Source: Bacteroidales bacterium (GTDB taxonomy: Bacteria > Bacteroidota > Bacteroidia > Bacteroidales > WCHB1-69). Taken from it: 38,720 bases of DNA. The position numbers and the translations under genes are program-made. The notes under the pieces were generated by a model. The model was not told the origin of the DNA and ran no database searches. It saw nothing but the letters and a program-made list of their open reading frames with translations. Location: contig JAGCVQ010000023.1 of the NCBI GenBank assembly GCA_017962275.1, positions 1-38,720 on the forward strand, read 5' to 3'. Of this stretch, positions 256 through 38,720 are shown one piece after another; within the stretch, counting starts at the first letter, position 1; every line of letters starts with the position of its first letter.

Positions 256-264
256 CCCCTAATC

Positions 265-289
265 TTCTAACCTACTAACCTATAACCTA
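265..289 (+). repeat. Short 7/8-bp tandem array before mutL
   Basis: Three degenerate units of the type ctaaccta fill most of the gap between the small membrane gene and the mutL start codon. This is one of the weaker members of the array class seen throughout the window. Confidence 0.5.
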
Positions 290-2155
290 ATGGAAGACAT
301 TATCCGACTGCTGCCCGATGCGGTGGCGAACCAGATCGCGGCGGGTGAAGTGGTACAACGTCCCGCCTCCGTGGTGAAGGAATTGCTGGAGAACGCCATC
401 GACGCGGGTGCGACCAACATCCAACTGGTGGTGAAGGATGCCGGCAAGACCCTCATCCAGGTGATAGACAACGGCAAGGGCATGTCGTTCAACGACGCAC
501 GGCTCTGCTTCGAGCGGCACGCCACCTCCAAACTGCGCAAGGCCGACGACCTGTTCCACATCTGCACCAAAGGTTTCCGCGGCGAGGCACTTGCCTCCAT
601 CGCGGCCATCGCACACGTGGAACTCAAAACCAAGCCCGCAGCGGATGAAATGGGCACCCTCGTCCTCATCGAAGGGGCGGAAATCAAGGAACATGCGCCC
701 ATCACGGCCAGCGACGGAACCTCCATCGCCGTGAAAAACCTCTTCTTCAACGTGCCCGCCCGCCGCAACTTCCTCAAGTCCGACAAGGTGGAACTCACCC
801 ACATCGAGGAGGAACTCTACCGCGTCGCCCTCATCCACCACGACATCGCCTTCCAATACTATAACAACGGCCGGATGGTGCTGATGCTGCCCGCCTCCAA
901 CATGCGGCAGCGCATCGTCAACATTTTCGGGCAGCACCTCAACGACAAGCTCTTCCCTGTGGAACTCGACCACGAGCTGATGCGGATCACCGGCTTCATC
1001 GCCAAGCCCGAGAACGCCAAAAAGAAGAGCGAGCAGTATATGTTTATCAACCAGCGGTATGTGCGCCACAGCTTGCTTAACTTCGCGGTCGAGAAGGCCT
1101 ACGCCGACCTCATCCCGCAAGGCTCGCACCCCTCCTACTTCATCGCCATCGAAATCGACCCCTCCACCATCGATGTCAACGTCAGCCCCACCAAAGTGGA
1201 GGTCAAACTGCAAGATGACCGGCTCATCTTCGGATTTCTGAACTCCACAGTGAAGAAATCCCTCGGCACCATGTCGCTCACCCCGATGATCGACTTCGAC
1301 GACTCGTTCCCCGACATTGTCACGCAAAAACCGGAGGGTGTGGAGGTCAAACCGCCCGTCTATTCGTCAAATCCGAGTTACAACCCCTTCGACAAAGTGC
1401 CGGAAAAGAAGCACAGTTCCCCCTTCCAACAGTTCGGCGGCGGTGGTTTCCGTCGCGAGACACCCACTTCCAACGATTGGGAGAACTTCCTGAAGGAGCT
1501 GAACGTGGAGAAGGTGGAATACCCGAAAGAGGAACAGCAGACGGTGGATTTCCAGCCCGAAACCGAACACAATGAGCTCGAACTGCCCGAAATCATCCCG
1601 TTTTTCGTCTTCCAGAACCGCTATCTCTTCTTTGAGCTGAACGGTCAGGTGATGACGGCCGACCTCCCCAACGTGCAGGAGCGCATCCTGTACGACACCT
1701 ACGTCAACGCACTGAAAAACACCCCGATACATCCGCAGCAGAGTCTGTTCCCGCAAACCATCACCCTCACCGCCGCCCAAACCGACTTGGCCGTCTCGCT
1801 CAAGGAGGATTTCCTGCGGTTAGGATACGAGCTGGAGCAGATGGACAGCACCCACCTCGCCGTCAACGCCACCCCCAACGACGAAGAGGAAGAGGGTGAC
1901 GTGCAAGCCCTTATCGAAAATGTGCTGACCACCTACCAGACCAACCAAGTAATCCACAAGGGCGACAAGATCTCCGGAATAGCGCAGAGCATGGCCCGAC
2001 AGAAACGCAGCAAACAGCGCGTTCCCGCCACGCAAGAGGAAGTCAAAGCCCTGATCCGCAAGCTGTTCGAGAGCGACATGCCCACCCTCTCGCCGTCCGG
2101 GAAGAGCACGCTTCACATTTTCGGCGCGGAAGAACTGCGGCATTATTTCGAATAA
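290..2155 (+). CDS. mutL: DNA mismatch repair protein MutL
   Basis: MutL couples mismatch recognition by MutS to downstream strand processing. The 621-residue length is normal. The N-terminal GHKL ATPase is clear: ENAIDAG (about 34-40), DNGKG (60-64), the TSKL region near 79 and GFRGEAL (95-101). A proline- and polar-rich linker runs from about 350 to 430, followed by a C-terminal dimerisation domain. The DQHAxxER-type endonuclease motif of many MutL proteins is not intact: the equivalent segment near 455-467 reads ADLPNVQERILYD, and near the C-terminus SPSGKST stands where CPHGRP would be. This copy may therefore lack its own nicking activity, as in E. coli, and that may be usual in this phylum. 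The gene probably shares a transcript with the small membrane gene upstream. Confidence 0.96.
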   Translation: MEDIIRLLPDAVANQIAAGEVVQRPASVVKELLENAIDAGATNIQLVVKDAGKTLIQVIDNGKGMSFNDARLCFERHATSKLRKADDLFHICTKGFRGEALASIAAIAHVELKTKPAADEMGTLVLIEGAEIKEHAPITASDGTSIAVKNLFFNVPARRNFLKSDKVELTHIEEELYRVALIHHDIAFQYYNNGRMVLMLPASNMRQRIVNIFGQHLNDKLFPVELDHELMRITGFIAKPENAKKKSEQYMFINQRYVRHSLLNFAVEKAYADLIPQGSHPSYFIAIEIDPSTIDVNVSPTKVEVKLQDDRLIFGFLNSTVKKSLGTMSLTPMIDFDDSFPDIVTQKPEGVEVKPPVYSSNPSYNPFDKVPEKKHSSPFQQFGGGGFRRETPTSNDWENFLKELNVEKVEYPKEEQQTVDFQPETEHNELELPEIIPFFVFQNRYLFFELNGQVMTADLPNVQERILYDTYVNALKNTPIHPQQSLFPQTITLTAAQTDLAVSLKEDFLRLGYELEQMDSTHLAVNATPNDEEEEGDVQALIENVLTTYQTNQVIHKGDKISGIAQSMARQKRSKQRVPATQEEVKALIRKLFESDMPTLSPSGKSTLHIFGAEELRHYFE

Positions 2156-2159
2156 TATT

Positions 2160-2180
2160 AGGCAAAAGGCAAGAGGCAAT
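2160..2180 (+). repeat. Heptad array after mutL
   Basis: Three consecutive 7-bp units (aggcaaa, aggcaag, aggcaat) start two bases after the mutL stop codon. This is a short member of the window-wide array class. Confidence 0.55.
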
Positions 2181-2230
2181 AGAATAGATACGAACAGAAA
2201 ATATATATTATAAAAGGTATTCCTTAAGCA

Positions 2231-2297
2231 GTCCCGAAGGGACAAGACGCACGAAGTGCTAATAACCCCACACAAGGCGCAAGCCGCAGTGTGGGGT
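2231..2297 (+). other. Triple-hairpin element between mutL and ABC gene
   Basis: Three hairpins follow each other: gtccc/gggac (2231-2235/2239-2243) with a GAA loop; gcac/gtgc (2249-2252/2256-2259), also with a GAA loop; and a 9-bp stem accccacac/gtgtggggt (2265-2273/2289-2297) whose 15-nt loop holds a further 3-bp stem closed by a GCAA tetraloop. The element ends 16 bp before the ABC gene start. No T-run follows, so a plain intrinsic terminator is unlikely. It could be a REP-like mobile repeat or a structured leader. No second copy is present in the window. Confidence 0.6.
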
Positions 2298-2313
2298 CTC
2301 AAACAACAAAACA

Positions 2314-3081
2314 ATGGATTCCATCAGCATAAACAATCTGACATTCGGATACGACAAAAAAGTCATCTTCCACAACCTGTCGCTAACTTTCCGACAGGGC
2401 GACTTCTGCTCGATCCTGGGGCCGAACGGGTCGGGAAAGACCACGTTGCTGAAGTGCATTGTCGGGTTACTGCAGCCCAGTGACGGGGTGGTTAAACTGC
2501 ACGGGAAAAGCCTTTCAGACTACAAGAAAACCGAGTTGGCCCGCGAGATTGCTTACGTGCCGCAGTATCAGGACATCGTGTTCGACATCTCCGTTTTCGA
2601 CTACGTGATGTTGGGGCGCAATCCCTACCAGACCCCATGGGAGATGCAACGTCCTGAGGACAAAGAGGTTGTGGAGGCGATGCTGCAAAAGTGCAACGTC
2701 TGGCACTACAGAGACACGTTGTTGCAGTCGCTAAGCGGCGGCGAACGGCAGCGGGTGATGATCGCCCGCGCCATGGCCCAGCAGACCGGCATCATGCTGT
2801 TGGACGAGCCGCTGTCGAACATCGACGTCACCCACAAATTCGAGATCATGGACATCCTGCAGGAGCTGAATGAGAGTTCAAACACCACCGTCCTCATCAT
2901 CCTGCACGACCTGCCGATTGCCAAAGCCTACTCCAAGCAGGTGTTGCTGCTCAAGAGCGGGAACGTGCTCCAATTCGGCGACGGAAATGCGGTCCTGACC
3001 GAGGAAAACATCCGAAACTGCTTCGATTTATCCGGCGTTTACGACATTTCCGAGGCGGGCTTTATCACCAAAAAACGTTGA
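2314..3081 (+). CDS. ABC transporter ATP-binding protein (FecE/BtuD-like)
   Basis: A stand-alone nucleotide-binding subunit of 255 residues, the usual size for iron-siderophore or cobalamin importers. Walker A is GPNGSGKTT (36-44), the Q-loop lies in VPQYQD (near 86), the signature LSGGERQRV is near 139-147, Walker B IMLLDEP is near 160, and the H-loop is in ILHDL. It would drive ATP-dependent uptake through a FecCD-type permease, but no permease or binding-protein gene is next to it here, so the substrate is unknown. The start is the first ATG after the hairpin element. No TAnnTTTG box is visible upstream, so it may be read through from mutL. Confidence 0.88.
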   Translation: MDSISINNLTFGYDKKVIFHNLSLTFRQGDFCSILGPNGSGKTTLLKCIVGLLQPSDGVVKLHGKSLSDYKKTELAREIAYVPQYQDIVFDISVFDYVMLGRNPYQTPWEMQRPEDKEVVEAMLQKCNVWHYRDTLLQSLSGGERQRVMIARAMAQQTGIMLLDEPLSNIDVTHKFEIMDILQELNESSNTTVLIILHDLPIAKAYSKQVLLLKSGNVLQFGDGNAVLTEENIRNCFDLSGVYDISEAGFITKKR

Positions 3082-3085
3082 TTTC

Positions 3086-3120
3086 GGCCATCGGCTATTG
3101 GCTGTTAGCTATTAGCAATC
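3086..3120 (+). repeat. Heptad array after ABC ATPase gene
   Basis: Five units in exact 7-bp register (ggccatc, ggctatt, ggctgtt, agctatt, agcaatc) begin five bases after the stop codon (TGA 3079-3081). Confidence 0.65.
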
Positions 3121-3152
3121 AACTGATTATCTGAATAATACGAAACACAGTA

Positions 3153-3187
3153 AGCCAAAAGCTAAAAGCTAAAAGTCAAAAGCCCAA
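3153..3187 (+). repeat. Heptad array before tRNA-Ser promoter
   Basis: Five 7-bp units (agccaaa, agctaaa twice, agtcaaa, agcccaa) lie just upstream of the tRNA-Ser promoter. The agtcaaa unit recurs in the array at 19943-20019. Confidence 0.65.
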
Positions 3188-3203
3188 AAAAACACACATC
3201 TGT

Positions 3204-3226
3204 TTCCAAAAAAAGTGTACTTTTGC
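3204..3226 (+). promoter_or_regulatory. Promoter of tRNA-Ser
   Basis: The -7 box TACTTTTG is at 3218-3225, directly behind an A-tract and a GTG step, 11 bp before the tRNA. The 23-bp block differs at one base from 19900-19922, upstream of the cytidylate kinase-like gene. The tRNA-Leu promoter has the same A-tract/TGTA layout. Confidence 0.75.
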
Positions 3227-3236
3227 CGCCCGATTC

Positions 3237-3321
3237 GGAGAGATGGCAGAGCGGTCGATTGCGGCGGTCTTGAAAACCGTTGAGGGTAACACCTCCGGGG
3301 GTTCGAATCCCTCTCTCTCCG
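3237..3321 (+). tRNA. tRNA-Ser (anticodon UGA)
   Basis: The acceptor arms ggagaga (3237-3243) and tctctcc (3314-3320) pair fully, followed by discriminator G. The anticodon loop reads cttgaaa, giving UGA. A long class II variable arm is present and the T-loop is ttcgaat. The CCA end is not encoded. It decodes UCN serine codons. Confidence 0.95.
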
Positions 3322-3331
3322 CAAAAAACCT

Positions 3332-3359: not shown

Positions 3360-3418
3360 GTTCGTTTAAACCGGGAAAGAAACAGGACAAAGTTATATTC
3401 TTTGGATTTTGCCACTAG

Positions 3419-3763: not shown

Positions 3764-3816
3764 ACCGTGCATTTTTCGCACCCAAAAACACACCCGAAAA
3801 TGGCTCAGCGAACAAA

Positions 3817-14132: not shown

Positions 14133-14164
14133 GGGTTAGGGGGTTAGAGGGTTATAGGGTTATT
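14133..14164 (+). repeat. Octad array between tolC-like gene and methyltransferase
   Basis: Four exact 8-bp units (gggttagg, gggttaga, gggttata, gggttatt) fill the whole 31-bp gap between two genes and overlap the TolC stop codon (14163-14165) by two bases. Confidence 0.8.
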
Positions 14165-19922: not shown

Positions 19923-19942
19923 ACCACCTTTCTTAGGTTCCA

Positions 19943-20019
19943 AGTCAAAAGTCAAAAGTCAAAAGTCTCACGTCATACGTCTCAAATCATACGTCTCACG
20001 TCCAAAATCCAAAATCATG
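19943..20019 (+). repeat. Eleven-unit heptad array running into a start codon
   Basis: Eleven 7-bp units in unbroken register: agtcaaa three times, then agtctca, cgtcata, cgtctca, aatcata, cgtctca, cgtccaa, aatccaa and aatcatg. The last three bases of the final unit are the ATG of the cytidylate kinase-like gene. The array fills most of the space between promoter and start codon and would form the transcript leader. Confidence 0.88.
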
Positions 20020-20643
20020 TCCAACTTCGTCATCACCATCAACCGCGAGGCGGGATCCGGCGGCAAAGAGATCGCCGAAAAGCTGGGCGAACTGCTCGGT
20101 GTGAAAGTCTATGGCAAGGAAATCCTCGCCTCCATCCGTGAAAAATACGACCTCTCCGAAGAGGACCTCGAGAAGATCAAAGCGACAAAACCGGGCTGGT
20201 GGGCCGACTTCTGCCGGTTCTACAAGCAGTTCGGCACCACGGTCGCCATCGCTTACGAGTCGTTCGAGGTCGATTCGAAACAGTTGTACCAGGAGGAGGA
20301 GAAAATCCTCAAGGAAATCGCCGCCCAGGAGTCCTGCATCATCGTGGGGCGCACCGGATTCCTCATCTTCAAGGACAATCCCGACGCCATGCGCCTGCTC
20401 ATCATCGCCGACCCTGAATGCCGTGTCAAACGGCTGATGGAGAAGCAGAATGTTGACGAAGCCGGTGCCCGCGAGATCATGGAACGCACCGACAAAGCCC
20501 GCGAGAACTACACGAAATCCTTCGCCGGCACCTCCCGCTACGACGCCCGCAACTACGACATCGTCCTCAACGTGTCGGGTTTCACCACCGACCAGGTGGC
20601 GCAATTCCTCGCCGAAAACGTCCGGAGGAAGTATGACGTATGA
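20017..20643 (+). CDS. Cytidylate kinase-like family protein
   Basis: 208 residues of the Cytidylate_kin2-type P-loop kinase family. ITINREAGSGGKEIAEKLGELLG (6-28, in two motifs) holds the nucleotide loop (EAGSGGKEIA), unlike the GPSGSGKGT of true Cmk. CIIVGRTGFLIF (near 107-118) and LLIIADPECRVKRLMEK (near 128-144) are family landmarks, with an arginine-rich lid to about 180. Members may phosphorylate nucleosides or nucleotides, but the substrate here is not established; the housekeeping cmk is probably elsewhere. The last residues YDV and the TGA stop are encoded by a heptad array, and the start codon closes another one. Confidence 0.88.
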   Translation: MSNFVITINREAGSGGKEIAEKLGELLGVKVYGKEILASIREKYDLSEEDLEKIKATKPGWWADFCRFYKQFGTTVAIAYESFEVDSKQLYQEEEKILKEIAAQESCIIVGRTGFLIFKDNPDAMRLLIIADPECRVKRLMEKQNVDEAGAREIMERTDKARENYTKSFAGTSRYDARNYDIVLNVSGFTTDQVAQFLAENVRRKYDV

Positions 20644-20680
20644 CGTGTGACATCTCACGTCCCACGTCTCACGTCTCACG
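20632..20680 (+). repeat. Heptad array overlapping gene end
   Basis: Seven exact 7-bp units (tatgacg twice, tgtgaca, tctcacg, tcccacg, tctcacg twice). The first two encode the last three residues and supply the TGA stop (20641-20643). The tctcacg unit is a rotation of cgtctca in the upstream array, in the same orientation. Confidence 0.85.
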
Positions 20681-20686
20681 TCAAAC

Positions 20687-21894: not shown

Positions 21895-21904
21895 CAAAAT
21901 AATT

Positions 21905-21932
21905 GATAATTGAGAATGGATAATGGATAATT
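21905..21932 (+). repeat. Heptad array gataatg upstream of gcvT
   Basis: Four 7-bp units (gataatt, gagaatg, gataatg, gataatt) directly upstream of the gcvT -7 box. The same unit recurs at 24553-24587. Confidence 0.75.
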
Positions 21933-21959: not shown

Positions 21960-22008
21960 AACTGCTAACTGCTAACTACTAACTGCTAACTACTAACTGC
22001 TAACTGCT
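21960..22008 (+). repeat. Heptad array aactgct/aactact overlapping trmB end
   Basis: Seven perfect 7-bp units alternating aactgct and aactact. The trmB stop codon (21993-21995) and its last five codons lie inside the array. Confidence 0.9.
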
Positions 22009-22664
22009 AACTTCACGTAATGAATCGTCTTGCCCTCCGCGAGCCACATCTTCTCGTAGAACGTCTGTACCTCGGTGAGCAGCGGATCGGCGCCGCCTGC
22101 GTAAACGTCAGGGACATTTTCCAAGAGTTCCCAACGCTGCTCCTGCGCCGTTTCCAGCAGGTACTCGTATAGGAAGTCGCTGTCGGACTTCAGGTGCAGA
22201 ATGCCGCCGTCAGCGGGCCAAATCTGCCGGTAGTAGTCGTTGACAAAGTGCGGGCCCACCAGCCGTTTGCGCTCCTTCTTGATCTGCGGGTCCGGGAAGG
22301 TCACCCAGATCTCATCGACTTCGCCGGGCGCGAAATACAAACCGATGTGGTCGATCGTGATTCTCAGGAAGGCCACGTTGTCGAGACCCTGCTCGAGCGC
22401 GTCCTTGCAGCCTCGCCACAAACGCGCCCCCTTCCGGTCAACGCCGATGTAGTTGCGATCGGGAAAACGGTTGGCCATCGCCACCGTGTATTCCCCCCTT
22501 CCGCAGCCCAATTCCAGCACGATGGGCCGGTCGTTGTGGAAATAATCCTCCCGCCAGCGCCCCCGCAAGGGAAACTCCTTCCCTATCCGGTCGTATTCCG
22601 TGTGCTGGAAGAGATTCTTAAATGTCGCGTTCTCCGCGAAACGTTCTAATTTGTGCTTGGACAT
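21993..22664 (-). CDS. trmB: tRNA (guanine-N7-)-methyltransferase TrmB
   Basis: Methylates N7 of G46 in tRNA variable loops using SAM. 223 residues. The SAM-binding motif ELGCGRGEYT is near 51-60, YIGVDRKG near 72-79, and the diagnostic WVTFPDPQIKKERKRLV near 120-136, with Gln where many bacteria have Trp after FPDP. An N-terminal basic extension precedes the fold. The C-terminus LAVSS and the TAG stop are encoded by the heptad array, so the natural end of the protein has been overwritten or shaped by the repeat. It follows the MsbA-like gene after 119 bp that consist almost wholly of two arrays. Confidence 0.95.
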   Translation of the reverse strand: MSKHKLERFAENATFKNLFQHTEYDRIGKEFPLRGRWREDYFHNDRPIVLELGCGRGEYTVAMANRFPDRNYIGVDRKGARLWRGCKDALEQGLDNVAFLRITIDHIGLYFAPGEVDEIWVTFPDPQIKKERKRLVGPHFVNDYYRQIWPADGGILHLKSDSDFLYEYLLETAQEQRWELLENVPDVYAGGADPLLTEVQTFYEKMWLAEGKTIHYVKLAVSS

Positions 22665-22670: not shown

Positions 22671-22724
22671 GGTTTAAGGTTTATGGTTACACGGTTACAG
22701 GGTTACACGGTTATAGGGTTAGGG
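22671..22724 (+). repeat. Octad array ggttacac upstream of trmB
   Basis: Two 7-bp units (ggtttaa, ggtttat) then five 8-bp units (ggttacac, ggttacag, ggttacac, ggttatag, ggttaggg) start seven bases from the trmB start codon. It is the same unit family as at 36381-36436. Confidence 0.85.
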
Positions 22725-22736
22725 GGAATAACTACA

Positions 22737-22799
22737 AAATACTAACTACTAACTACTAACTACTAACTGCTAACTGCTAACTACTAACTGCTAACTACT
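22737..22799 (+). repeat. Heptad array overlapping MsbA-like gene end
   Basis: Nine 7-bp units (aaatact, then aactact/aactgct) in exact register. The stop codon of the ABC exporter gene (22784-22786) and its last codons lie inside. Same unit family as 21960-22008. Confidence 0.9.
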
Positions 22800-24547
22800 A
22801 ACTTGTAGTACGTTCCCTTCTGTATCATCAGCTCCTCGTGCGTTCCCTTCTCCACAACGGAGCCGGCGTCGAGGACGTAGATGCAGTCGGCGCGGCGAAT
22901 GGTGGAGAGACGGTGGGCGATGACCACGACCGTGTGCTCTTTCGACAACGCCTCGATGGACTGTTGCACCAGATGCTCGGACTCGGTGTCCATCGCCGAG
23001 GTGGCCTCGTCCAAAACGAAGATGGGGGCTTTGCGCAAGACAGCCCGGGCAATGCTCACCCGCTGCCGCTGTCCGCCCGACAACGCCACCCCCCGGTCGC
23101 CAACCACATGGTCGAAACCGTCGGGGAGGGACATCACGAAGTCGTAGATGTTGGCGGCCTTGGCAGCCTCCACCACCTCCTCCATCGTGGCGTCGCAACC
23201 CAACGTGATGTTCCGGAAAATCGTGTCGTGGAAGAGCATCACGTCTTGGGAAACGAGCGCGAACAGCCCCCGGTAATCCGACACGCGGTAACGCTCAACG
23301 GGAACGCCGTCGAGCTGGATCTCACCGCCCGTGACATCATAGAACCGCATCAGCAGGTCGGCAAGGGTGGTCTTGCCCGCGCCGGACGACCCCACAAAGG
23401 CAATCGTTTGCCCCTTGGGAACCGACAAATCGATATGATGCAGGACATCCGTGTCCGCGTAGGCAAACGAGACATCCCGGAAGGCAACCTCATCCCAGAA
23501 GCCGGGCACGGGAAGGGCATCGGGACGGTCTTCAACCTGATCCTCGATGGCGAGGAAGTCCCGAATTCGATCCAGCGCCGCCTCCCCGCGCTTGTAATCG
23601 GCAAAGGCAGAGGAGATATTCGACACCGGCGTGATGATCTGCGTGAAGAGCGCAATGTAGGTGATGAACAGCTCCGCCGAAAGCGAAGAACGTTCCGACA
23701 GAACTAAAGAGCCGCCGATCACCAGCACCACCATGACCGACACGACCCCGAGAAACTCGCTCAAAGGATTCGCCAAGTAGCTCTGTCGATAGACCTTCTT
23801 CTGGTTCTCATGGAACTGGTTGTTCAGCTGCTGGAATTTGCGGTAGGCTCGCTCCTGGGCGTTGAAACCGTAGATTACCCGAAGTCCCGAAAGGGTCTCC
23901 TCCACATGGGCAAGCAACACCCCCAACCGTTGGCGATAGGTCTTGGAGGAGCGTTTGAGCAGGTGCGAGAGTAAGCCGATAATCAGGAAGGAGAGGGGCA
24001 TCAACAAGACCGCCCACAACGAGAGCTGGTAATCGATAAAGAAGAGAAACGACAAATAGCAGAGCAACGCGATAGGATCGGTGAGGAACTTCTGGATGGA
24101 GGTCAACACCGTGTACTCCACCTCCTGTGTGTCATTCACGGCCCGGGTGACCGCGTCTCCCCTACTCTCCTTGGTGAAGTAACCCAACGGCAGCGAAATC
24201 ATCTTGTCGTAAAGACGGTTGCGCAACTGGTAGAGGAAGTCGCTGCGCACATGGGCCATCACCCACTGGGAAGCGTAAGCAGAGAGATTCCGAAGGAAAT
24301 AGAGCAACGCCGCGAAAAGAATCAGAACCAGAATCGAATGGCGTGCGCTGTCAAGGGGGAAAACCGCAGACAATAAGGAGACGACATACGCGGAGACCGG
24401 GCTCAATCCATCCAACGACCCACGGAACAACAGCTTCACGAACGGTTCAATCATCAGAAACGTGAACACCGTCAATCCGACATAGAGGAGGTTCAGGAGG
24501 AAGACTCCCGCTAAACGAACCGCGTATCGCTTCAGGAAAGAAAACAT
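22784..24547 (-). CDS. ABC exporter, fused permease-ATPase (MsbA-like)
   Basis: 587 residues: an N-terminal six-span membrane domain (about 1-315) and a C-terminal ATPase. Walker A GSSGAGKTT near 386-394, Q-loop LVSQD, signature LSGGQRQRV near 488-496, Walker B IFVLDEAT near 506-513, H-loop VVIAHRLST. The layout is that of homodimeric lipid/drug exporters; MsbA-type lipid A flipping is plausible but not shown. The C-terminus KLVVSS is encoded by the heptad array and closely matches TrmB's KLAVSS although the proteins are unrelated. No TAnnTTTG box is seen upstream. Confidence 0.9.
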   Translation of the reverse strand: MFSFLKRYAVRLAGVFLLNLLYVGLTVFTFLMIEPFVKLLFRGSLDGLSPVSAYVVSLLSAVFPLDSARHSILVLILFAALLYFLRNLSAYASQWVMAHVRSDFLYQLRNRLYDKMISLPLGYFTKESRGDAVTRAVNDTQEVEYTVLTSIQKFLTDPIALLCYLSFLFFIDYQLSLWAVLLMPLSFLIIGLLSHLLKRSSKTYRQRLGVLLAHVEETLSGLRVIYGFNAQERAYRKFQQLNNQFHENQKKVYRQSYLANPLSEFLGVVSVMVVLVIGGSLVLSERSSLSAELFITYIALFTQIITPVSNISSAFADYKRGEAALDRIRDFLAIEDQVEDRPDALPVPGFWDEVAFRDVSFAYADTDVLHHIDLSVPKGQTIAFVGSSGAGKTTLADLLMRFYDVTGGEIQLDGVPVERYRVSDYRGLFALVSQDVMLFHDTIFRNITLGCDATMEEVVEAAKAANIYDFVMSLPDGFDHVVGDRGVALSGGQRQRVSIARAVLRKAPIFVLDEATSAMDTESEHLVQQSIEALSKEHTVVVIAHRLSTIRRADCIYVLDAGSVVEKGTHEELMIQKGTYYKLVVSS

Positions 24548-24552
24548 ATTTA

Positions 24553-24587
24553 GTTAATTGATAATGGATAATGGATAATGGATAATT
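24553..24587 (+). repeat. Heptad array upstream of MsbA-like gene
   Basis: Five 7-bp units (gttaatt, gataatg three times, gataatt), five bases from the ABC exporter start codon. Confidence 0.75.
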
Positions 24588-24775
24588 GGTGAAACAATTT
24601 TGATTTATGTGACCTATTGGCTCTCAAATTGTATTGTTATCCGACTAACGGAAATTGAGATTGGAAAATTAGTAGGAAAGGAAAAACTTAAGCAAAGAAG
24701 GAATAAAAAAAACGAGAATCAAATAATGACACAAATCGAGAGCGAGTAATCTATAAAAAGTGAAAAAGATTCGCA
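24588..24775. other. AT-rich spacer without recognisable features
   Basis: A-rich on the plus strand. No ORF, hairpin or -7 box that I can defend. The promoter of the MsbA-like gene should lie here or further right within the giant gene's 3' end, but I cannot point to it. Confidence 0.4.
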
Positions 24776-24810
24776 ATTATCCATTATACATTATAAATTA
24801 TGAATTAAAA
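24776..24810 (+). repeat. Heptad array after the giant gene's terminator
   Basis: Five 7-bp units beginning attat or atta (attatcc, attatac, attataa, attatga, attaaaa). The array merges into the A-run of the terminator. Confidence 0.6.
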
Positions 24811-24845
24811 AAAAGGAGTTGCACGCGATGTGCGCACAACTCCTT
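24807..24845 (-). terminator. Terminator of the giant adhesin gene
   Basis: On the minus strand a 9-bp stem aaggagttg/caactcctt (24845-24837 with 24821-24813), whose loop can pair further, is followed by a T-run of eight (24814-24807). It lies 20 bp after the stop codon. Confidence 0.8.
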
Positions 24846-33800: not shown

Positions 33801-36052
33801 TTGGAGTTGTCTTTCACAACGAGAACCAGATTCTTCTGACCATTATAATTATAAGGAGTGGTGAAGTTGAGTTCTCTCCAGCCAGTTTCAGAAGCGTTCA
33901 AGCCGCCGGAATAGACGAGCTGCAGATTCGAGGTAACGAAATCCGCTTTGCTCTCGAAGGCGTTTTTATCGGTAGTGCCAAGATAGATTTCCACATTGGC
34001 AGTCTTCTTGGTCGTGGTATTAGCCACATTGAAGGCCATTTTGGTAATGGTACCAGCATCCACTTCGTCGGAAGTGAAGATCTGCTGGCTGTAGTTTCTG
34101 GTCTTAGACACATTGACAGGCATTCTGCCATTGCTCTTCGGGGTGCCAGTGATCGTGACAACCTTCGTATCCGTAGCCACATGCTCACCGTCAACATTGA
34201 TGGAGGTGAAGCCGGTCCAGTTGAAAGTGTAGGGTTGGTCAGTTTGAGTGGTGGAAACGGTAGCCGTCATCACAACCTCGTCGCTCACGCAATAGACATC
34301 CTTCGTCTCAGACTTGGTCAAGACGGGCGTCTGGTGCAGGTTGATGGTGATGTAGGAGAACATCGGAGACGGACATCCGTCATTCTCGTAAGAGACTGCG
34401 AAGAAATAGAGGACCGTATCCTTGTTCGTGGACGGCATATAGTCGGCCAAGTTGATGGTCAGCTCGTTGCTGCCGATATAGGTTTCCGGATCGAGGTAAG
34501 TGGAGAAGTAGTTCTGCAACGGCAGGGTGCCAGCCACAAGCCAACCGAATTGCATTGATTTGTTGGGCAGGAAAGCCGTGTACCATTTCACCGTGTTGGC
34601 ACACTCCTCGTCCAGCTCAGCAGAGAGGGTGAGGGTCGCGCCATTGAGAGCCTCGAGACAGAAGTCGGTCAGCTCGGGGGTGTTGATCTCCGGAGGAGTC
34701 ATCTCCTTGAAGGTGACCTTGAAGGTAAGGGAGGCGCCGACACAATCGAGCGTATCATTATAAGTGTTGATCTGACGGATGGTGAAATAGTTGTCACCGG
34801 GAACATTGAGGTTCGTCAGAGCCGGGGGTGCATCGTTCCAAGTAGGAGCAGAGTACAACGTAAGCGGGTAATACCATTGGAAGTGAGGAGTGCACTGGGT
34901 GTCATCCAGACCGTCCTCATCCATCGTCACGAGATCGAGAAGATCATCGACGGTGAATTCGGCGCACTTGCAAAGGACGGCGTCCTCAGCTTGCACGACC
35001 GGGGTGTGACGGACGAAGAAGTGAACTCTGTAGAGGCTGTCCGTTTGGGTGATGGCACAATCAGAATTGGGGTTGAGTGTGCGGTTGAACGCAACGAGAG
35101 TGTCAGGAGTGGTAACAGAGAAAGTGTACGGGGGCTGGCCAAAGGTCCAGGTCTCGTTTTGACAAACTTCCTTGGAGTATTCACCGAAGACGGGATAAGC
35201 GATAGTGTCAGAAGAAAGGATCTCGCCGCAGCAAGATTGGTGACCGCCGATGAAGTCGGTGGTTTCGTTTTCGTTCCAAGTGAGGTTGTTCCAAGCGGTA
35301 CCGCCGACGCGCTCACGCAGGTTCATGATCAGTCTGTACTTACCCGCAGCTTTCCATTTGAGTTGGACCAGGGTGCGGGTCTGGGAGAAGAAGTCATAAT
35401 AGAAATAGTCAAGTGCTTCTGTGTAGATGGGGGTCATGCCCATAGCAGGGATGAGCTGACCGAGTTGGTTCACAACGCTGTAGGGAGTACCCTGACCGAC
35501 GGGCACGGCGCCGGGATAGTTGGTCGGGGTGTTGCAGGTGATGCCGTGGAACATGTCCGGGGCAACTGCTTGCTCGCAACAGCCGAAGCCATTGGGCACT
35601 CTGCCACCAAGCCACGTGATGCGGTTGCAAGCGCCCGTGGTGTCGTTGATCTCGGCATAGAGTGTGTAAATGTCAAAATCCACATAGTAGGAGAGATTGT
35701 CATTTACAGTCACCCAATTCCCGTTCTCGTCCTGACGTTGCAGGATCCAGTCGAGGGAGACCTTAGTCTTGGGAGCCAAGTTGCACGCGTCGCAAAGGAA
35801 CAGCTCGTACAGCTCGGTCCTACCAACATTGGCGTTGCCGTAATAATCATACGGGTTGTCAGGGTTGATGAAAACCCCGTGGCCCAGAGTATGATCCAAC
35901 GGCAGCAAGCCATCAGGCGACATTTGCGCAACACCCTCTATGGTGTCGGGCTGCAAGTTCTTGATGATGAACCCGCAATTTTGCGCCTGCGCACTGAAGC
36001 TCAGAAGCCCCAGCAGAATGCTCAGAAAGCAAATTGATAATAGTTTTTTCAT
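24866..36052 (-). CDS. Giant T9SS-secreted multidomain adhesin-like protein
   Basis: 3,728 residues in one uninterrupted frame. Signal peptide MKKLLSICFLSILLGLLSFSAQAQ. The last 86 residues or so (from about 3643, MEVWPNPAP, then LTGKQVYAGE, GSYIMTV and KKVIVTTLAR) form a type A T9SS sorting domain, so the protein should cross the outer membrane through the gliding/Por secretion system and be attached to the surface. Between lie many Ig/PKD-like beta domains: HYR-like domain near 850-970, a run of eight Cys-containing SprB-like repeats at about 1454-2235, and two adhesin-type domains at about 640-805 and 2804-2955. The second resembles gingipain/HagA cleaved-adhesin domains (FESG, then DDWLITPAI and YFDDF). 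Composition is Thr/Asn/Asp/Val-rich and Lys/Arg-poor. The closest described parallels are SprB-type adhesins. It has its own promoter and terminator. Confidence 0.92.
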   Translation of the reverse strand: MKKLLSICFLSILLGLLSFSAQAQNCGFIIKNLQPDTIEGVAQMSPDGLLPLDHTLGHGVFINPDNPYDYYGNANVGRTELYELFLCDACNLAPKTKVSLDWILQRQDENGNWVTVNDNLSYYVDFDIYTLYAEINDTTGACNRITWLGGRVPNGFGCCEQAVAPDMFHGITCNTPTNYPGAVPVGQGTPYSVVNQLGQLIPAMGMTPIYTEALDYFYYDFFSQTRTLVQLKWKAAGKYRLIMNLRERVGGTAWNNLTWNENETTDFIGGHQSCCGEILSSDTIAYPVFGEYSKEVCQNETWTFGQPPYTFSVTTPDTLVAFNRTLNPNSDCAITQTDSLYRVHFFVRHTPVVQAEDAVLCKCAEFTVDDLLDLVTMDEDGLDDTQCTPHFQWYYPLTLYSAPTWNDAPPALTNLNVPGDNYFTIRQINTYNDTLDCVGASLTFKVTFKEMTPPEINTPELTDFCLEALNGATLTLSAELDEECANTVKWYTAFLPNKSMQFGWLVAGTLPLQNYFSTYLDPETYIGSNELTINLADYMPSTNKDTVLYFFAVSYENDGCPSPMFSYITINLHQTPVLTKSETKDVYCVSDEVVMTATVSTTQTDQPYTFNWTGFTSINVDGEHVATDTKVVTITGTPKSNGRMPVNVSKTRNYSQQIFTSDEVDAGTITKMAFNVANTTTKKTANVEIYLGTTDKNAFESKADFVTSNLQLVYSGGLNASETGWRELNFTTPYNYNGQKNLVLVVKDNSNQSQDNKYFSCSQTEDYMSMIIATDGVLPTDPTTYTGTVNKYQYRSDVKFTVIPAINANAQTVYNQLNPENECGHAYSTSVYVVDANGCVSQPVQFDYTGNDTLAPVVTPAARVTRVEGCNVNENNDVLFETLADFDQANIDVTDDAVVIGDKCGLPYVTFTHADTHLAGPCEDTIIRVYTFTDKCGRTATFTDSIISRDTQKPIFLDPVTNQSPYIRMIPERGMNCTFNAPEKPAFVHAILPVVSDNCTTMDSLWLMDHATFYWENSELFNQVLAPGTIDIFGPQVGNQLTVKVVIEDACGNADTAMILYFNRPDTLEIETPSITVDPANICLGETATLTFDPEKVTFDEDFALATPLTIVWNNLENEVEFSDTNAAVTTVTPAVGDKTYHFQVTVTDAYGCTATSEYAPLFVKDNPHVKIIKDVRNGAIEPYCPNYGDLTIVAVDAATETHIPNLRYTWTGESVNVNASIEDTSFIVIVPDYCDWHYTANVHVVDTIYGCVGDATITVWAADTAGPKYLGDVINETVPVEENCKMYVPDFIHYLNNANIVDNCYSFSEFYQSFRQDPEAGTEMTEDTPVTIYVTTPCQAAEYPIVNKFFARVPENKLHVSAAVVPAEDCEPADFTFTATPENGIGTITYTWTKANSTWTANGQVVTNTETVAAGAVSSTYTYTVKAVDAVHCEATASVNVTVYKTIVDIDTVTYPNTNCVAPWNGQLVVFHAPIGTHYELTQDNFYMERVSEVPGWDTQVQENTLIFDYLQEGNYLLTVTTPNGCVSTFDVTIREAKPTITFNNEVTPHNPTYCTNDNGYITIVAEPGYTYEVYNANGVLVPSPYTGLTVGDYRIVKTSTVNRCQAETWFHIDESETTMEFTVSASANTLCGDEEFNGKVAFTTTGWTYTVTDDNGEVIYEGAATTLNTLAEGTYQVAGVHNQTGCTHTEPATVVNGRNNPVFTATTTPNNYCENEDGLVNGAITMTPATTYTYTVTNTDEDVIVTNLSALAAGNYNVYALNENNNCWHDTNVVVENDFYYPTANATSQENTSCNPEVLAYNGSISIAVSADVEGTTITNANNAFNNKIKPFEVNLVCDENEVDITTQFAASPATFSGLNSGIYNFTVTSKFFCTVEGEVEIDQHEMPALVMHATPNTMCEPTFEKPGNGTIVMDSVTTEFNHVYYRDPIFDYSFYFASTTPAEGFESVNGYYPGTQLQVNYWVPISYTMYYLADSLYYVQVYDRLTGCDVADTITVPMGRDNIVAEAQATPNKNCKAPYDGTVTATATAYKLNTEDYNLDAVLSFRLVGDDNDFATEYQLGTITAGTLNSTFTTTFTGIPDGTYTLLVQDTTTKCVYPFEGAVTVEKTESDIVITPTITPNHACQIEGETTTPWDGTLAAVASSEMFANAQWVYKFYSVDSLGVVWHKEANATYGTTNSWNSLETGAYTVIALDNVSGCSQDSVFAVPTDNVCAPEVTFNVIGENNIPYHFCLNTNPAQICAVATTTNPDCPATEYSYKWHVDCHSLDFNGPCVEVATDEVHNCTYTVTVTSLATGCKTVESITVVIDPIHTINYLVNDMPFLASPRTVYNCVNEDVKIGIEQNSWVEAWWTNAHVTPLPQGNPEYDFIVAANSTTPNQMYSYCVNVVDDHGCPATGVINLISKPLPTVTVYDTACTEFSIDNETFVYEDGTPDADYNVHFEYQEVTPKAGSNGCDSITIHKITLLGEPTITGTLPSAFCAGTTVQSVLNLLTITNAIDTVVYINGQYAPKTAALTYSQCSTINMQVIAFSGSYSAEYGDHVSCSTGENYSFVVNAAPVFTEDLVLEPYCADGEAQPVDVPGHNCNICNSNDPVQTGCSLKLYVLDTDEGNSVIEYLGVVNGDQFSFVPNAEYDGKLLALTLSNGCGSITTFDTLHIDATTIHINDVTICEGLALDIDAILGKHYDNVTTYLLQPVAIGGSTTHDVEYQEIVYNGEPMIPEYNGYGLYFVVDNNICHEIVTDTATITVNPLPVLEIGDIESDLCYDNAAAELAAAIETQFASEEGWLVPAATSADTTIEVWTEGFESGVIPADWTTYTNGQGAGWTITNENPHSGSNASISVSYVDATYQEISVDDWLITPAINVETGMKLSYFHRNYSSPSYQDKYDVYVLNSNVFDENATPIATNIIPSTTWSENVINLNSYAGQTVYVAFRHQDNGMWKLYFDDFTLTQDFKQYATAGAVVEAIKNTPNTDVYYYVANGCGADMQYVGNFRILFPLTIGGGNVTVCPDATLADVTNQFTPSITLGNYSINEVGVYYTVGTGDQAVVLTDNDELADYGVTSGSAIAVNVTPVDVENCGAASAPVTVTFLTEEPVEPTFKPACSGNHLSAFIATQPDWNTTNAEHPMSLLDPDESYWQVYDATIHTVDPDEYVVDAEYADQVEGIWVRYVWVTECGETVGSWFKQLIINDAPVITNLVNEIAICAGTTVEESDLNLAVVYNGNEDKYDTVYTLDGAQFNFPHQFTTPGEYELKVTIHGDQTCCGDAVEELTITVNAIPEPHAVGDTMVCLDGEAHLNVVTPAEGSEYAWYYGTTQIGTGTDLNVTFGVTDNPAEATITVGGNTITVTKQLTYEFTVVETVNNCSSVSMVNESIDPYKLDVVTVKVTDLPQFVFYDKDGNKTHHIDAAEGNAFTKYYWEIDKHCPNEDILVWVDFTIYHNDTLIANDHIGDYIFTQELASVTGGSVNYWTHSDSIHWSPGSWTPQNNLPDYKKVFRYNASIPSTNAANSATTNHFPNASMFSGNTNVYRDLYLYFLDDIDTVKKLFAPFTIAGEYKVVYRLRATDNNNYWTNPYYNHDLGTNDLFVGGSNPFLGNITLLACDSITITVENPFVPSNTPSENVAPELAPALSLDDVPAPDMEVWPNPAPAVTTTLKARVHNLDGNATVTLTTLTGKQVYAGEIYIDNDNYYFEFNVNSLSVGSYIMTVRTATDIITKKVIVTTLAR
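29340..31695 (-). repeat. Eight SprB-like protein repeats inside the giant gene
   Basis: Coding repeats beginning with a pattern of the form [TS]xN..C. Starts near residues 1454 (YPNTNC), 1551 (TPHNPTYC), 1627 (SANTLC), 1709 (TPNNYC), 1788 (SQENTSC), 1896 (TPNTMC), 2012 (TPNKNC) and 2121 (TPNHAC). Each has G-x-[IV] about 10 residues later, a Y-x-[VF] strand, and an ending around GC or C before an xxVxxx strand. Spacing is 76-116 residues. Residue positions are estimated from nucleotide positions. Confidence 0.75.
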
Positions 36053-36173: not shown

Positions 36174-36380
36174 CATTTTTTTTTCATTGTTTGTCTTTTC
36201 GCGGCTTTTTTTTTCGTTTTTTTTGAAATATTCTCTAACTCGCTTATATACAGAATCTTATATACTCACATTTAGTTATTAAAACTTTTCAACACGGTAT
36301 CAACAGCTTCAAAATGCAGACAATTCCGCCATTCTTCCCACTTTTCCCGTCTATCTTCTTATACGAAAGGGGGGAGGATT
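36174..36380. other. Spacer without recognisable features
   Basis: T-rich near the giant gene promoter (the promoter A-tract on the other strand), then ordinary AT-rich sequence. No ORF or hairpin stands out. Confidence 0.4.
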
Positions 36381-36436
36381 GGTTACATGGTTACACGGTT
36401 ACACGGTTACACGGTTACACGGTTAGGGGGTTAGAA
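36381..36436 (+). repeat. Seven-unit octad array ggttacac
   Basis: Seven 8-bp units in perfect register: ggttacat, ggttacac four times, ggttaggg, ggttagaa. It is the longest near-perfect array in the window. Confidence 0.9.
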
Positions 36437-36475
36437 CTGGGACAGAATGGGTAGAACAGTAGTAGCGTACGGTTA

Positions 36476-36538
36476 GGCAAGGGGTTGGCAAGTATATGGC
36501 AAGCCAAAAGACTTGCTTTGACTTGCCAACCCCTTGCC
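36476..36538. repeat. 18-bp perfect inverted repeat
   Basis: ggcaaggggttggcaagt at 36476-36493 and its exact complement at 36521-36538, 27 bp apart. The loop contains further short complements (ggcaag, acttgc). It overlaps the period-11 array to the right. Confidence 0.8.
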
Positions 36539-36573
36539 AACCCCTTGCCTAACCCTTGCCTAACCCTTGCCTG
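36523..36573 (+). repeat. Period-11 tandem array
   Basis: ttgccaacccc twice, ttgcctaaccc twice, then ttgcctg: four and a half 11-bp units in register. Confidence 0.85.
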
Positions 36574-36657
36574 TGTAGGGCTGCCGCATTATACCTGTAG
36601 GGCTGCCGCAATGCGACAGCCCTACAGGTATAATGCGACAGCCCTACAGGTATAATG
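36574..36657. repeat. 37-bp inverted repeat built of 22-bp tandem units
   Basis: Left arm 36574-36610 and right arm 36612-36648 are complementary except for two C/A mismatches, with a single base between. Each arm is about 1.7 copies of a 22-bp unit (tgtagggctgccgcattata plus cc on the left). The right side extends into a third partial copy to 36657. A transcript would fold into a very long hairpin. Confidence 0.88.
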
Positions 36658-36685
36658 AATATATGGTATATATTATATATAAGAA

Positions 36686-36709
36686 AGGCCCGGGAATCCT
36701 CCCAGGCCT
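36686..36709 (-). terminator. Terminator of the OmpA/PorE-like gene
   Basis: A 10-bp stem with one G-U pair (36709-36700 with 36695-36686), a 4-nt loop and a pyrimidine-rich ttctt tail on the minus strand, 37 bp after the stop codon. Confidence 0.8.
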
Positions 36710-36748
36710 AACCATGTAACCATGTAACCGCGTAACCCTTTAACCCTA
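36709..36748 (-). repeat. Octad array overlapping OmpA/PorE-like stop codon
   Basis: Five 8-bp units, read on the plus strand as taaccatg twice, taaccgcg, taaccctt, taacccta. The gene's TAG stop (36746-36748) lies in the last unit and the terminator stem begins at the other end. Confidence 0.85.
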
Positions 36749-38683
36749 CTTGATAATCTTGAACTCCGTTCTCCGGTTGGCGGCGCGGCCTTCGTCGGTG
36801 GTGTTGTCGGCCACGGGCACGCGCTTGCCGTAACCCTTGTACTGCAGCCGCGTGGCAGGGATGCCCTTGGCCACGAGGTAGTCGTAAACCGCTTTCGCAC
36901 GGTTCTCGGAAAGACGGTCGTTGTATTCGTCCGTGCCTTGGTCGTCGGTGTGACCGCCAATCTCAATGCGGATGTCGTTGGTCCGCAGGTAATCAGCTAA
37001 CTTGTCCAGCTCCACATACGACTCGGGCTTCAGCTCGGTGCGGTCGAAATCGAAGAAGACATTCTTCAAGGTGACCACAGTACCCACGTCGGTGGGCTGC
37101 AGAAGGATGTCCTTCAGATACGGGGAGAGCTCCGAGTAGGTCTTCTCCACCTGGAAGTTCTCGGAATAGAAGGGGTAGTCGGGATGGGAAACGTTGAGCA
37201 GGACGTTGCCGCCGGTATGGATGCAGGCCAGATAGCCGCCGGTCTGCGGATCGGAAGTGGTGGCGGTCAGCAGCTGCCGCGTATTCAGGTCGATCATCTC
37301 GATGCGGGCTGCCAGCGGATCCCCGGTGAAGGCATCGCGCACATGTCCCTTGATGTAGGTGACGGGATTGGGACGCAAGCCGTCGTCCAGCACAAAGCTG
37401 TAAAGGTCGAGACCACCGTATCCCCCACCCTTGTCGGAGGAGATGTAGGCCATGGTGCCGGTGGCGTTGATGAAGATGTTGATCTCGTCGGCGGGCGAGT
37501 TGAGCGGATAGCCCATGTTCTGGGGTTCGCTCCAGCTGCCATCCGACTGGAGGGTCGTGTAGTAAAGGTCGTAGCCGCCCATGCCTACCCGACCGTTGGA
37601 GGCGAAGTAGAGGGTGCGGCCGTCGCTGTGGATGAAGGGGGCGGCATCGTCACCCGGGGTGTTGACAGCGGGACCGAGGTTCTCGGGGATGGAGAACTCC
37701 CCTTCGGCCGTCATGGTGGTCTTCCAGATGTCCATTCCGCCAAAACCGCCGGGACGGGAGGAGGCGAAATAGATCGTCATGCCGTCGGCGGCCATCGTGG
37801 GTTGGCTTTCCCACGCCTGCGTGTTCACCGGGGCACCGAAGTTGCGGGGGCGAGACCAACGTTCCCCCATGCGCTTGGCCCAGTAGAGATCGCAGCTGCC
37901 CATCCCGAAGTCGGCATCGCACATGGTGTAGAGCAGGTACTTGCCGTCGGGGGAGAGACACTGCGCCCCTTCGTTGTAACCGGTCTTCACCGGAGCACCC
38001 AGGGGAGTGCGGGGGAGCCAGTTACCACCGGCCCCCATCCGGCTCGCATAGAGGTCCTCCTCGTTGAGACAGAAAGCGCACACCGTCTGCTGGTCGCGGG
38101 GACGCTTCACGGTGAACACAATCTCGGCATCGTCGGCGGTGATGGCCGCGAGGTACTCATCCCATTCGGAGTTGACCCCCGATCCGAGGTTCACCAACTC
38201 GAAACTGTGCGGATGCTTCATCGCCTCGATGGCGAAACGGCAGTTGGCAATCGTCTTCTGCGCATCGGGGTGCACGTCGGAATATTGAAGTCCCTTCTGG
38301 AGGAAAGTCTGCAACGTGCGGAGCGCATATTCGTAGTCACCGCACTTCGCGCCCTCGTTACCGGCAATGTAGTAGAGCATCGGGTCGGGGTCGCCGATGA
38401 GATCGATGGCGCGCTGGTAACAGAGCTTGGCCGAGTCGGACTGGAGACGGAAATTGTAGATGTCGCCCTTCATGATGTAGATATCGGGGAAACCGGGATC
38501 CTTGGTCTGCGCCTGGTCGAGGTAGTCCAGCGCCTTGTTGAAATCCTGCGACTGCATGGCCTGGCTGGCCTTCGCGCATAACGCCGCCGCCTTGGAGGGC
38601 TTCTGGGCATGCGCGGAGGGGAGGATGGCCGTCAGGAGCGACACCATCATTATTATATATACTATCTTTATATTATGTACCAT
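36746..38683 (-). CDS. OmpA family protein with TPR, propeller and CRD (PorE-like)
   Basis: 645 residues. Signal peptide at 1-26 (ending AHAQ), TPR-like helices at about 28-160, a PD40/WD40-like beta-propeller at about 165-430 with repeated DG.TIYFAS-type blades (SPDGKYLLYTM, AADGMTIYFASSRPGGFGGMDIW, HSDGRTLYFASNGRVGMGGYDLY, each separate), a carboxypeptidase-regulatory-like domain at about 440-525, and a C-terminal OmpA domain at about 535-645 whose GHTDDQG and LSENRAKAV carry the peptidoglycan-binding Asp and Arg. This order matches the T9SS component PorE (P. gingivalis PG1058), which links the machinery to peptidoglycan. Unlike that lipoprotein it has no lipobox cysteine. A start at Met12/13 is possible but would shorten the signal peptide. 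Confidence 0.87.
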   Translation of the reverse strand: MVHNIKIVYIIMMVSLLTAILPSAHAQKPSKAAALCAKASQAMQSQDFNKALDYLDQAQTKDPGFPDIYIMKGDIYNFRLQSDSAKLCYQRAIDLIGDPDPMLYYIAGNEGAKCGDYEYALRTLQTFLQKGLQYSDVHPDAQKTIANCRFAIEAMKHPHSFELVNLGSGVNSEWDEYLAAITADDAEIVFTVKRPRDQQTVCAFCLNEEDLYASRMGAGGNWLPRTPLGAPVKTGYNEGAQCLSPDGKYLLYTMCDADFGMGSCDLYWAKRMGERWSRPRNFGAPVNTQAWESQPTMAADGMTIYFASSRPGGFGGMDIWKTTMTAEGEFSIPENLGPAVNTPGDDAAPFIHSDGRTLYFASNGRVGMGGYDLYYTTLQSDGSWSEPQNMGYPLNSPADEINIFINATGTMAYISSDKGGGYGGLDLYSFVLDDGLRPNPVTYIKGHVRDAFTGDPLAARIEMIDLNTRQLLTATTSDPQTGGYLACIHTGGNVLLNVSHPDYPFYSENFQVEKTYSELSPYLKDILLQPTDVGTVVTLKNVFFDFDRTELKPESYVELDKLADYLRTNDIRIEIGGHTDDQGTDEYNDRLSENRAKAVYDYLVAKGIPATRLQYKGYGKRVPVADNTTDEGRAANRRTEFKIIK

Positions 38684-38691
38684 CTGGATAC

Positions 38692-38720
38692 AGTTTAGAG
38701 TTTAGAGTTTAGAGTTTAGG
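38692..38720 (+). repeat. Heptad array agtttag at window edge
   Basis: Four perfect agtttag units and one more base, continuing past the window, just upstream of the OmpA/PorE-like start codon. Confidence 0.85.

Follow-up and report, generated by a model that had tools for sequence, protein, structure and literature searches.

For decades heptamer repeats have stood as an orphan feature, ascribed to slippage, to G-quadruplexes or to unknown regulators. The heptanucleotide short tandemly repeated repetitive sequences (STRRs) of cyanobacteria were reportedly described by Mazel in 1990. MacGregor 2015 treats TAACTGA repeats, Bacteroidetes included, and considers a mobile binding protein (PMC4679880); a term search of that paper's text returned no S23. 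According to Rehm 2015, the G-rich heptamers of Xanthomonas and Nostoc show a polarity and those of Xanthomonas form inverted pairs; G-quadruplexes are discussed there, and no function was found (PMC4692102). A second described system is the intervening sequence (IVS) of ribosomal RNA (rRNA) genes, which has complementary borders, carries S23 open reading frames (ORFs) in several genera and has been called parasitic (PMC4990558). The S23 family is described as having no known function, and its Xanthomonas campestris protein as a pentamer of four-helix bundles (PMC4990558); a 2024 survey of rRNA insertions in the candidate phyla radiation lists 23S_rRNA_IVP as functionally uncharacterised (PMC11270868). 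Here we analyzed a stretch of 38,720 nucleotides from a Bacteroidales bacterium (the window; contig JAGCVQ010000023.1 of assembly GCA_017962275.1), in which short tandem arrays with 7- or 8-bp units lie at gene junctions. We propose that these arrays are probably the arms, intact or orphaned, of dispersed IVS-like hairpin elements that carry an S23 gene.

S23 genes lie between inverted arrays both within the genus and in distant phyla. PF05635, the S23 family, has five matches in the genome studied, 2 to 18 matches in every one of the 40 genus genomes searched, and matches in 157 of the 198 genomes sampled from the class. We called flanks inverted when the 350-bp flanks of a gene were reverse-complementary with a score of at least 14. 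This was so for three of the four S23 genes scored in the genome studied (the fifth was too short), for 26 of 29 genus loci taken as the best per genome, and for 39 of 42 genus paralogs, the last being a non-random pick of 40 regions among the matches listed for seven genomes. Direct-repeat flanks were seen at none, three and one of these, respectively. Related genomes are non-independent samples, and these counts should be read accordingly. Genes were called with our own script, using a greedy model first and a codon-usage finder later. Ordinary genes of the genome studied had inverted flanks in 6 of 199 cases and direct flanks in 14 of 199 under the greedy model; with the better gene calls these were 4 and 10 of 200. 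Arrays alone do not yield inversion, because only three of the 26 ordinary genes with arrays on both sides had inverted flanks, and another three had direct ones. Where S23 genes had two-sided arrays, the flanks were inverted at 30 of 30 genus paralogs (one also direct), at 13 of 14 best-per-genome loci (two direct) and at 3 of 3 in the genome studied. As a control, PF13366, a dispersed small gene of the same genomes, gave 4/26 inverted, 4/26 direct and 0/26 two-sided cases (30 loci fetched, 26 scored, three truncated, one skipped).

The arm units of S23 genes vary by locus and have periods of 7, 8 and 11 bp, as do those of solitary arrays. For instance, at the TrmB-GcvT junction of rumen Bacteroidales (80 loci), three loci (L054, L059 and L084) hold an S23 gene between opposed AGACTTA arrays. 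One full element (L204:915-1575) folds more stably than shuffled sequence (z -7.05, 20 shuffles). None of the 74 genus S23 loci (L131-L204) had an Rfam rRNA match. At L134 the heptamer arm itself codes for the C-terminus of the S23 protein (..PQLLTANC).

The same arms occur with and without S23 at the same junction, and we found this at two junctions. The window itself has no S23 match, nor has the whole contig (PF05635). At its GcvT-kinase junction a palindromic 7-bp array (20631..20682, fold z -3.8) begins in the kinase stop region, with GTATGAC and GTGTGAC units followed by inverted TCTCACG units and no gene between; the interval 20632-20680 is in itself two inverted arrays. The same junction in a relative (L052, ONHS01000075.1; L204 is the same stretch) has the window's units starting from the same stop codon, then an S23 gene and a long inverse arm. 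Judged by its units and position, 20631-20682 reads as the S23-less form of the element at the L052/L204 junction. The second junction belongs to another genus. There, ATTTCAAG arms enclose an S23 gene in L116 (inverted score 13), whereas the corresponding gap of 76 bp in L114 and L115 contains the ends of both arms without an S23 match. A further candidate for an S23-less state, L051, was ruled out. It has an AGACTTA-unit array at the trmB stop with no adjacent S23, but an S23 element of the AGACTTA unit lies across gcvT, and therefore the region is rearranged. Further junctions are cleanly empty; for example, where L137, L139, L142 and L143 have the AGGCAAA element, the genome studied has a gap of 57 bp and no AGGCAAA arrays.

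Polarity and unit families are common to S23 arms and solitary arrays. On the plus strand, G-rich arrays lie near the gene to the left of a gap and C-rich arrays near the gene to its right, regardless of the directions of the genes. For arrays within 40 nt of one boundary only, with the window excluded, the ratio of G-rich to C-rich was 51:2 for left-hand arrays and 10:42 for right-hand ones (p=2.9e-17). The same trend held in three sets of relatives (30:4 left and 9:18 right; 12:6 and 2:13; 6:0 and 1:7). Under the greedy gene model the polarity was noisier (44:17 near stops vs 8:22 near starts, p=4.8e-5), and by that model non-array flanks had no comparable G/C skew. S23 genes follow the rule as well: the 5' arm is G-rich at 56 of 62 genus loci (C-rich at five, even at one) and at all 12 plasmid loci of other phyla that were counted, one of them scoring 12. 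Of 219 arrays of the genome studied, oriented with the G-rich strand up, 174 match the S23 arm of another genome in the same orientation; the control orientations gave 78 (reversed), 34 (opposite strand) and 32 (complement).

Arm units are also shared between S23 loci that have no flank k-mers in common. Such pairs share units in 4-5% of cases below 50% S23 protein identity, in 19 of 194 at 50-65%, in 11 of 23 at 65-80% and in 3 of 3 above 80%. When the proteins flanking 14 sharing pairs were compared, nine had no similarity, four had one short hit and one (L184-L204) had clear homologs. These 14 pairs form about three groups, and so the sharing is only suggestive of arms that travel with S23.

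The arrays themselves are not a product of chance. All 16 intervals that a preliminary description of the window had named keep a period of 7 or 8 bp beyond mononucleotide shuffles, at p = 0.0005, the lowest value that the test can give, in 15 cases and at p = 0.005 for 265-289, and Tandem Repeats Finder recovers all 16, whole or in part. Their register is real but not exact throughout, as had been claimed: 19943-20019 matches at 69% and 265-289 at 65%. Sampling covered the window and 20 systematic stretches of the same genome (331 kb), extended by 20 further stretches to 678 kb. A lag-match scan found 103 arrays in the 331 kb and none in one Markov resample. Within 27 kb of intergenic sequence (greedy gene model), exact lag-match runs of at least 12 numbered 32 at lag 7, eight at lag 8 and six at lag 11, plus multiples of these lags; remaining lags had 0 to 2 runs and shuffles about none. 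In all, the 678 kb hold 224 arrays (178 with 7-bp units, 31 with 8-bp and 15 with 11-bp), of which five are intragenic. The 11-bp class, seen in the window at 36522-36572, had been missed, as had the inverted pairing of arrays at four sites of the window. An assembly artefact is unlikely because the same architecture recurs in many separately assembled metagenome-assembled genomes and in finished plasmids.

The claim that arrays occupy most gene boundaries was too strong, since 141 of 447 sampled junctions have one. They are frequent in gaps of 120-250 bp (69/122) and rare in gaps under 20 bp (2/86). Arrays do end genes: 60 overlap the stop of a coding sequence, and three overlap a start (678 kb). 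Unit families recur as described, two 7-bp arrays sharing a unit class with P 0.032 against 1/1172 under uniformity, and the 103 arrays of the 331 kb fall into 54 unit classes. AACTGCT, for instance, has 316 matches in the genome studied (overlapping ones counted apart) against four for the reversed pattern. Its matches are unevenly spread over the family, occurring in 56 of 104 genomes, with counts of 0 to 510 across genus species and, by informal comparison, no evident relation to S23 counts. In more distant Bacteroidales (L103-L130) period-8 arrays exceed period-7 arrays (20 vs 15), and lineages may therefore prefer different unit lengths.

If the arrays are S23 hairpin arms, a complete element would consist of a G-rich array of 7-, 8- or 11-bp units, a gene for the S23 four-helix bundle (PF05635) and a C-rich array that is the reverse complement of the first, and it would sit where two genes meet, in many cases at a stop codon. 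Such an element would have landed at a gene end. Its arms would then lengthen and shorten by slippage of 7-8 nt, drift, and be homogenised within each arm, with complementarity kept via stem selection or template-switch repair. S23 and often one arm would later be lost, leaving a polar array behind, and the S23 protein may aid the spread or the tolerance of the element. Most solitary arrays, we infer, derive from such elements and have lost S23 or one of the arms. An array split by an incoming gene would yield direct halves, and therefore S23 did not simply insert into arrays.

Several results weigh against this proposal. Movement of an element was not observed. With five S23 genes in the genome studied and an array density near 0.33 per kb (224 in 678 kb), most arrays lack an S23 gene in their vicinity. 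Within 800 bp, an inverted partner was found for only 19 of 103 arrays (direct 5; controls 2 and 4). In an automatic table of 16 S23 junctions, the unit is missing from 58 comparisons without S23 and present in eight with S23. Although 18 rows were called S23-less with the unit, 11 of these hold an S23 gene missed by the gene finder, judging by printed gaps and lengths; only seven remain (the window twice, L051, L114, L115 and L053 twice, L053 being doubtful). In other families of the class inverted S23 flanks were found at only 13 of 27 loci (30 fetched, three truncated; two direct), and the two class loci with two-sided arrays comprise one inverted and one direct case. Likewise, 9 of 20 plasmid S23 loci fall under score 14. 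Unit variants do not follow a mirrored order in the two arms (0/31 loci at p<0.05). On 190 kb of a Nostoc plasmid, with nine arrays, the polarity pointed the other way (left 2 G-rich to 4, right 2 to 0, p=0.43), and polarity was already published for the G-rich heptamers of Xanthomonas and Nostoc, where it is discussed in terms of G-quadruplexes (PMC4692102). Finally, two neighbouring arrays of one gap in the window, at 21899 and 21960, can belong to different unit families.

Beyond the class, we examined S23 loci on plasmids of other phyla (19 of 31 records and one further locus, 200-bp flanks). Flanks were inverted-complementary at 11 of 20 and direct at 2 of 20. The arm units are, for example, GGGAACA/TGTTCCC in Nostoc edaphicum, AGGGTGT/ACACCCT in Calothrix and GGTCGGA/TCCGACC in Nostoc HK-01, and loci of Gemmatirosa and Azospirillum have G-rich arms of 7 or 8 bp. 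Four loci below the threshold (L268, L271, L272 and L273) have, by eye, a short left TCAGAAG/TCAGGAG array and few complementary letters on the right. On Azospirillum lipoferum plasmid AZO_p2 the S23 gene (L275:1501-1839), which belongs to the 11 with inverted flanks, lies within a 23S rRNA gene (Rfam large-subunit match 292-3339); it was the only one of six plasmid S23 loci scanned with an rRNA location, and it is a true, textbook IVS with a stem of 7-bp arm units. The likeness to cyanobacterial heptamer repeats suggested by the preliminary description held, S23 loci of both groups having the same architecture, which could explain the old puzzle of those repeats. A wider version of the proposal, which we hold only tentatively and think somewhat doubtful, is that the intergenic heptamers known from cyanobacteria and later from Xanthomonas, Beggiatoaceae and Bacteroidetes largely stem from a single class of selfish hairpins that spans phyla, as its arms or what is left of them, with S23/IVP as the sole gene of the class, that rRNA IVSs are members that landed in rRNA genes, and that S23 acts on the hairpin to spread it. 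If true, rRNA intervening sequences would become a special case of a wider class. As a side observation, the S23 genes of three cyanobacterial plasmid loci (L262, L264 and L265) lie inside CRISPR-cas clusters, flanked by cas6 and cas4 in some and by cas10 and a cmr3-family gene in others.

The strongest competing explanation, though an unlikely one, holds that the hairpins belong to the host, as terminators, stabilisers of messenger RNA or RNase III sites, and that the S23 gene is a parasite settling in their loops. S23-less palindromes do occur at junctions, and at 20631-20745 and 36672-36745 one sees by eye an array that is bordered on one side by a stop codon and on the other by a hairpin resembling a terminator, T run included. 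Against it, the AGGCAAA arms of L137, L139, L142 and L143 are absent from the genome's own 57-bp junction, so that in this lineage the AGGCAAA palindrome either did not precede S23 or has disappeared completely. With the reservations given above on these 14 pairs, the sharing of arm units between close S23 proteins without shared flank k-mers (11/23 at 65-80% identity, 3/3 above 80%) also counts against it.

Somewhat less probable still is that the arrays are ordinary simple-sequence repeats, produced by polymerase slippage over 7-8 nt wherever selection is weak, with S23 loci being one place of many. Heptamers are said to be the commonest class of long bacterial repeats, and a polymerase contact of 7 nt has been put forward (Mrazek 2007, cited in PMC4679880). 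Array length varies between relatives, and the order of units is not mirrored; the arms therefore seem homogenised separately, as by slippage, although as families they remain complementary. Slippage does not, however, predict the inverted complementarity at S23 genes (39/42 vs 6/199), nor the polarity or the recurrence of families. The idea of slippage-driven growth followed by mutation is thus plausible for array length and a possible growth step within arms, but it leaves families, inverted pairing, polarity and S23 flanking unexplained, and as a full account we rejected it. The GGGNATC repeats have the same published polarity and form inverted pairs, 70 in one Xanthomonas genome and 75 in another (PMC4692102), and from them it might be argued that G-quadruplex or strand-asymmetry effects explain polarity and placement with no link to S23. 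This is very improbable and disfavoured because polarity is not restricted to G-tract units (GATAATG, AGGCAAA and AGTTTAG follow the rule), and X. campestris itself has an S23 protein, its structure being cited in PMC4990558.

The remaining arrays of the window, none assigned to a strand, lie around genes named from Pfam matches (mutL, gcvT, ABC, cytidylate-kinase-like and OmpA). Immediately before the mutL start is a C-rich 8-bp array (CTAACCTA, 259..289; repeat finder, shuffles, Pfam), and right after the mutL stop a G-rich 7-bp array (AGGCAAA, 2160..2180; repeat finder, shuffles) whose unit family is common to the arms of the S23 elements L137, L139 and L142. Between the stop of an ABC-ATPase gene and tRNA-Ser, an inverted pair of 7-bp arrays (GGCTATT.. 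/ ..AAGCTAA, 3084..3188) forms an S23-less hairpin (fold z -3.1), in which 3084-3116 pairs with 3152-3182. In agreement with the accessory patches that had been described as array-free, no array of score at least 11 occurs from 3183 to 14132, and one weaker intragenic run (score 9) lies at 7226-7242. An 8-bp array (GGGTTAGA, 14133..14163; repeat finder, lag scan) follows in a 31-bp gap between co-directional genes. A C-rich 7-bp array that drifts from AAGTCAA to ACGTCTC (19942..20016) precedes the start of the cytidylate-kinase-like gene, and another (GATAATT/GGATAAT, 21899..21932) lies upstream of the gcvT start.

The next gene carries a PF02390 methyltransferase domain, and we take it to be trmB. 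Its stop is overlapped by a 7-bp array (AACTGCT/AACTACT, 21960..22012), at a junction that holds an S23 element with other units in L054, L059 and L084; the region 21955-22015 folds weakly (z -1.84). An 8-bp array (GGTTACAC, 22685..22721; repeat finder) precedes the start of this trmB-like gene, and a 7-bp array (TAACTAC/TAACTGC, 22729..22803) overlaps the stop of an ABC transporter gene, at a junction where L084 has an S23 element. No folding beyond shuffles was found at 22680-22806 (z 0.16). Two large hairpins follow. One is a long S23-less hairpin (24551..24812, fold z -7.9) whose arms are the 7-bp arrays 24555-24586 and 24776-24807, with complementarity extending inward from them. The other is a giant nested hairpin (36376..36748, fold z -18.8) with the 8-bp arrays 36380-36425 and 36709-36745 as outer arms, of which 36380-36425 pairs with 36709-36737, and inner inverted arrays of 11 and 22 bp. 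At the window end, a 7-bp array (AGTTTAG, 38692..38719) lies upstream of the OmpA-domain gene.

The window and its comparison loci hold a few other features. One open frame of 3728 codons (24866-36052), whose match to a Por secretion tail is weak and falls short of the cut-off, has hairpins at both borders. Within the array-free stretch, 3817-4827 encodes an AbiEii-type nucleotidyltransferase toxin domain (PF08843). A palindrome, GTAGAGACG...CGTCTCTAC, at 3330-3360 recurs at the L054 and L035 junctions and resembles, by name, the GTAG-tagged repetitive extragenic palindromic (REP) repeats (PMC3733652). GxxExxY/PDDEXK_3 genes (L238:14040-14650, L284, L290 and L300) are sometimes flanked by GCGAAAA/TTTTCGC or GATTCGCGTGATCCGTGGAG, in direct or inverted arrangement, unlike heptamer arms. 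PF13366 (GxxExxY) as a second cargo, hinted at by L238, proved not to be general (4/26 inverted, none two-sided).

The array phenomenon is thus real and larger than the preliminary description thought, and its kind was already known. Although that description knew of no such repeats in Bacteroidales, Paludibacter propionicigenes is a member of this order. MacGregor 2015 lists two TAACTGA sets from it, so the statement was not quite right (PMC4679880). What is new, as far as our literature search reached, is an anatomy in which polar heptamer arrays form the arms of S23 hairpin elements; the search found no paper tying S23 to tandem repeats, subscription papers being mostly outside its reach. 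The link gives both protein and repeat a testable role, as parts of one hairpin element. Compared with rRNA IVSs, S23 elements share complementary, stem-forming ends (39/42 genus paralogs) and an ORF of the 23S_rRNA_IVP family, which the window arrays lack. As in the IVSs of Coxiella and Leptospira (PMC4990558), the S23 ORF lies in the loop of a complementary-end stem and the spread is sporadic, but the genus elements lie outside rRNA genes (74/74 loci) and occur several per genome. With the GGGNATC heptamers of Rehm 2015 (PMC4692102) the arrays share polarity to gene ends, stop-codon overlap and many inverted pairs, whereas here most units lack G-tracts and there is an S23 cargo. Cyanobacterial STRRs and the TAACTGA repeats of MacGregor 2015 are likewise intergenic 7-bp direct repeats with families, stop-codon overlap and a patchy phylogeny (PMC4679880). 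The head-to-tail, mainly intergenic units of about 7 bp and the unit families recurring in one genome place the arrays with these bacterial heptanucleotide repeats (STRRs and long simple sequence repeats), from which the 8- and 11-bp periods of the genome studied set them apart. Finally, S23 and its arms are present in some relatives and absent in others, as is typical of miniature inverted-repeat transposable elements (MITEs) and REPs, a described example of which comes from another member of the Bacteroidales, Porphyromonas gingivalis. Its BrickBuilt element (PMC4596501) is, like the elements proposed here, small, dispersed and intergenic, with inverted ends and a tandem array inside, but it is one named element with a 23-bp unit, whereas the unit sequence of the arrays here differs by locus.

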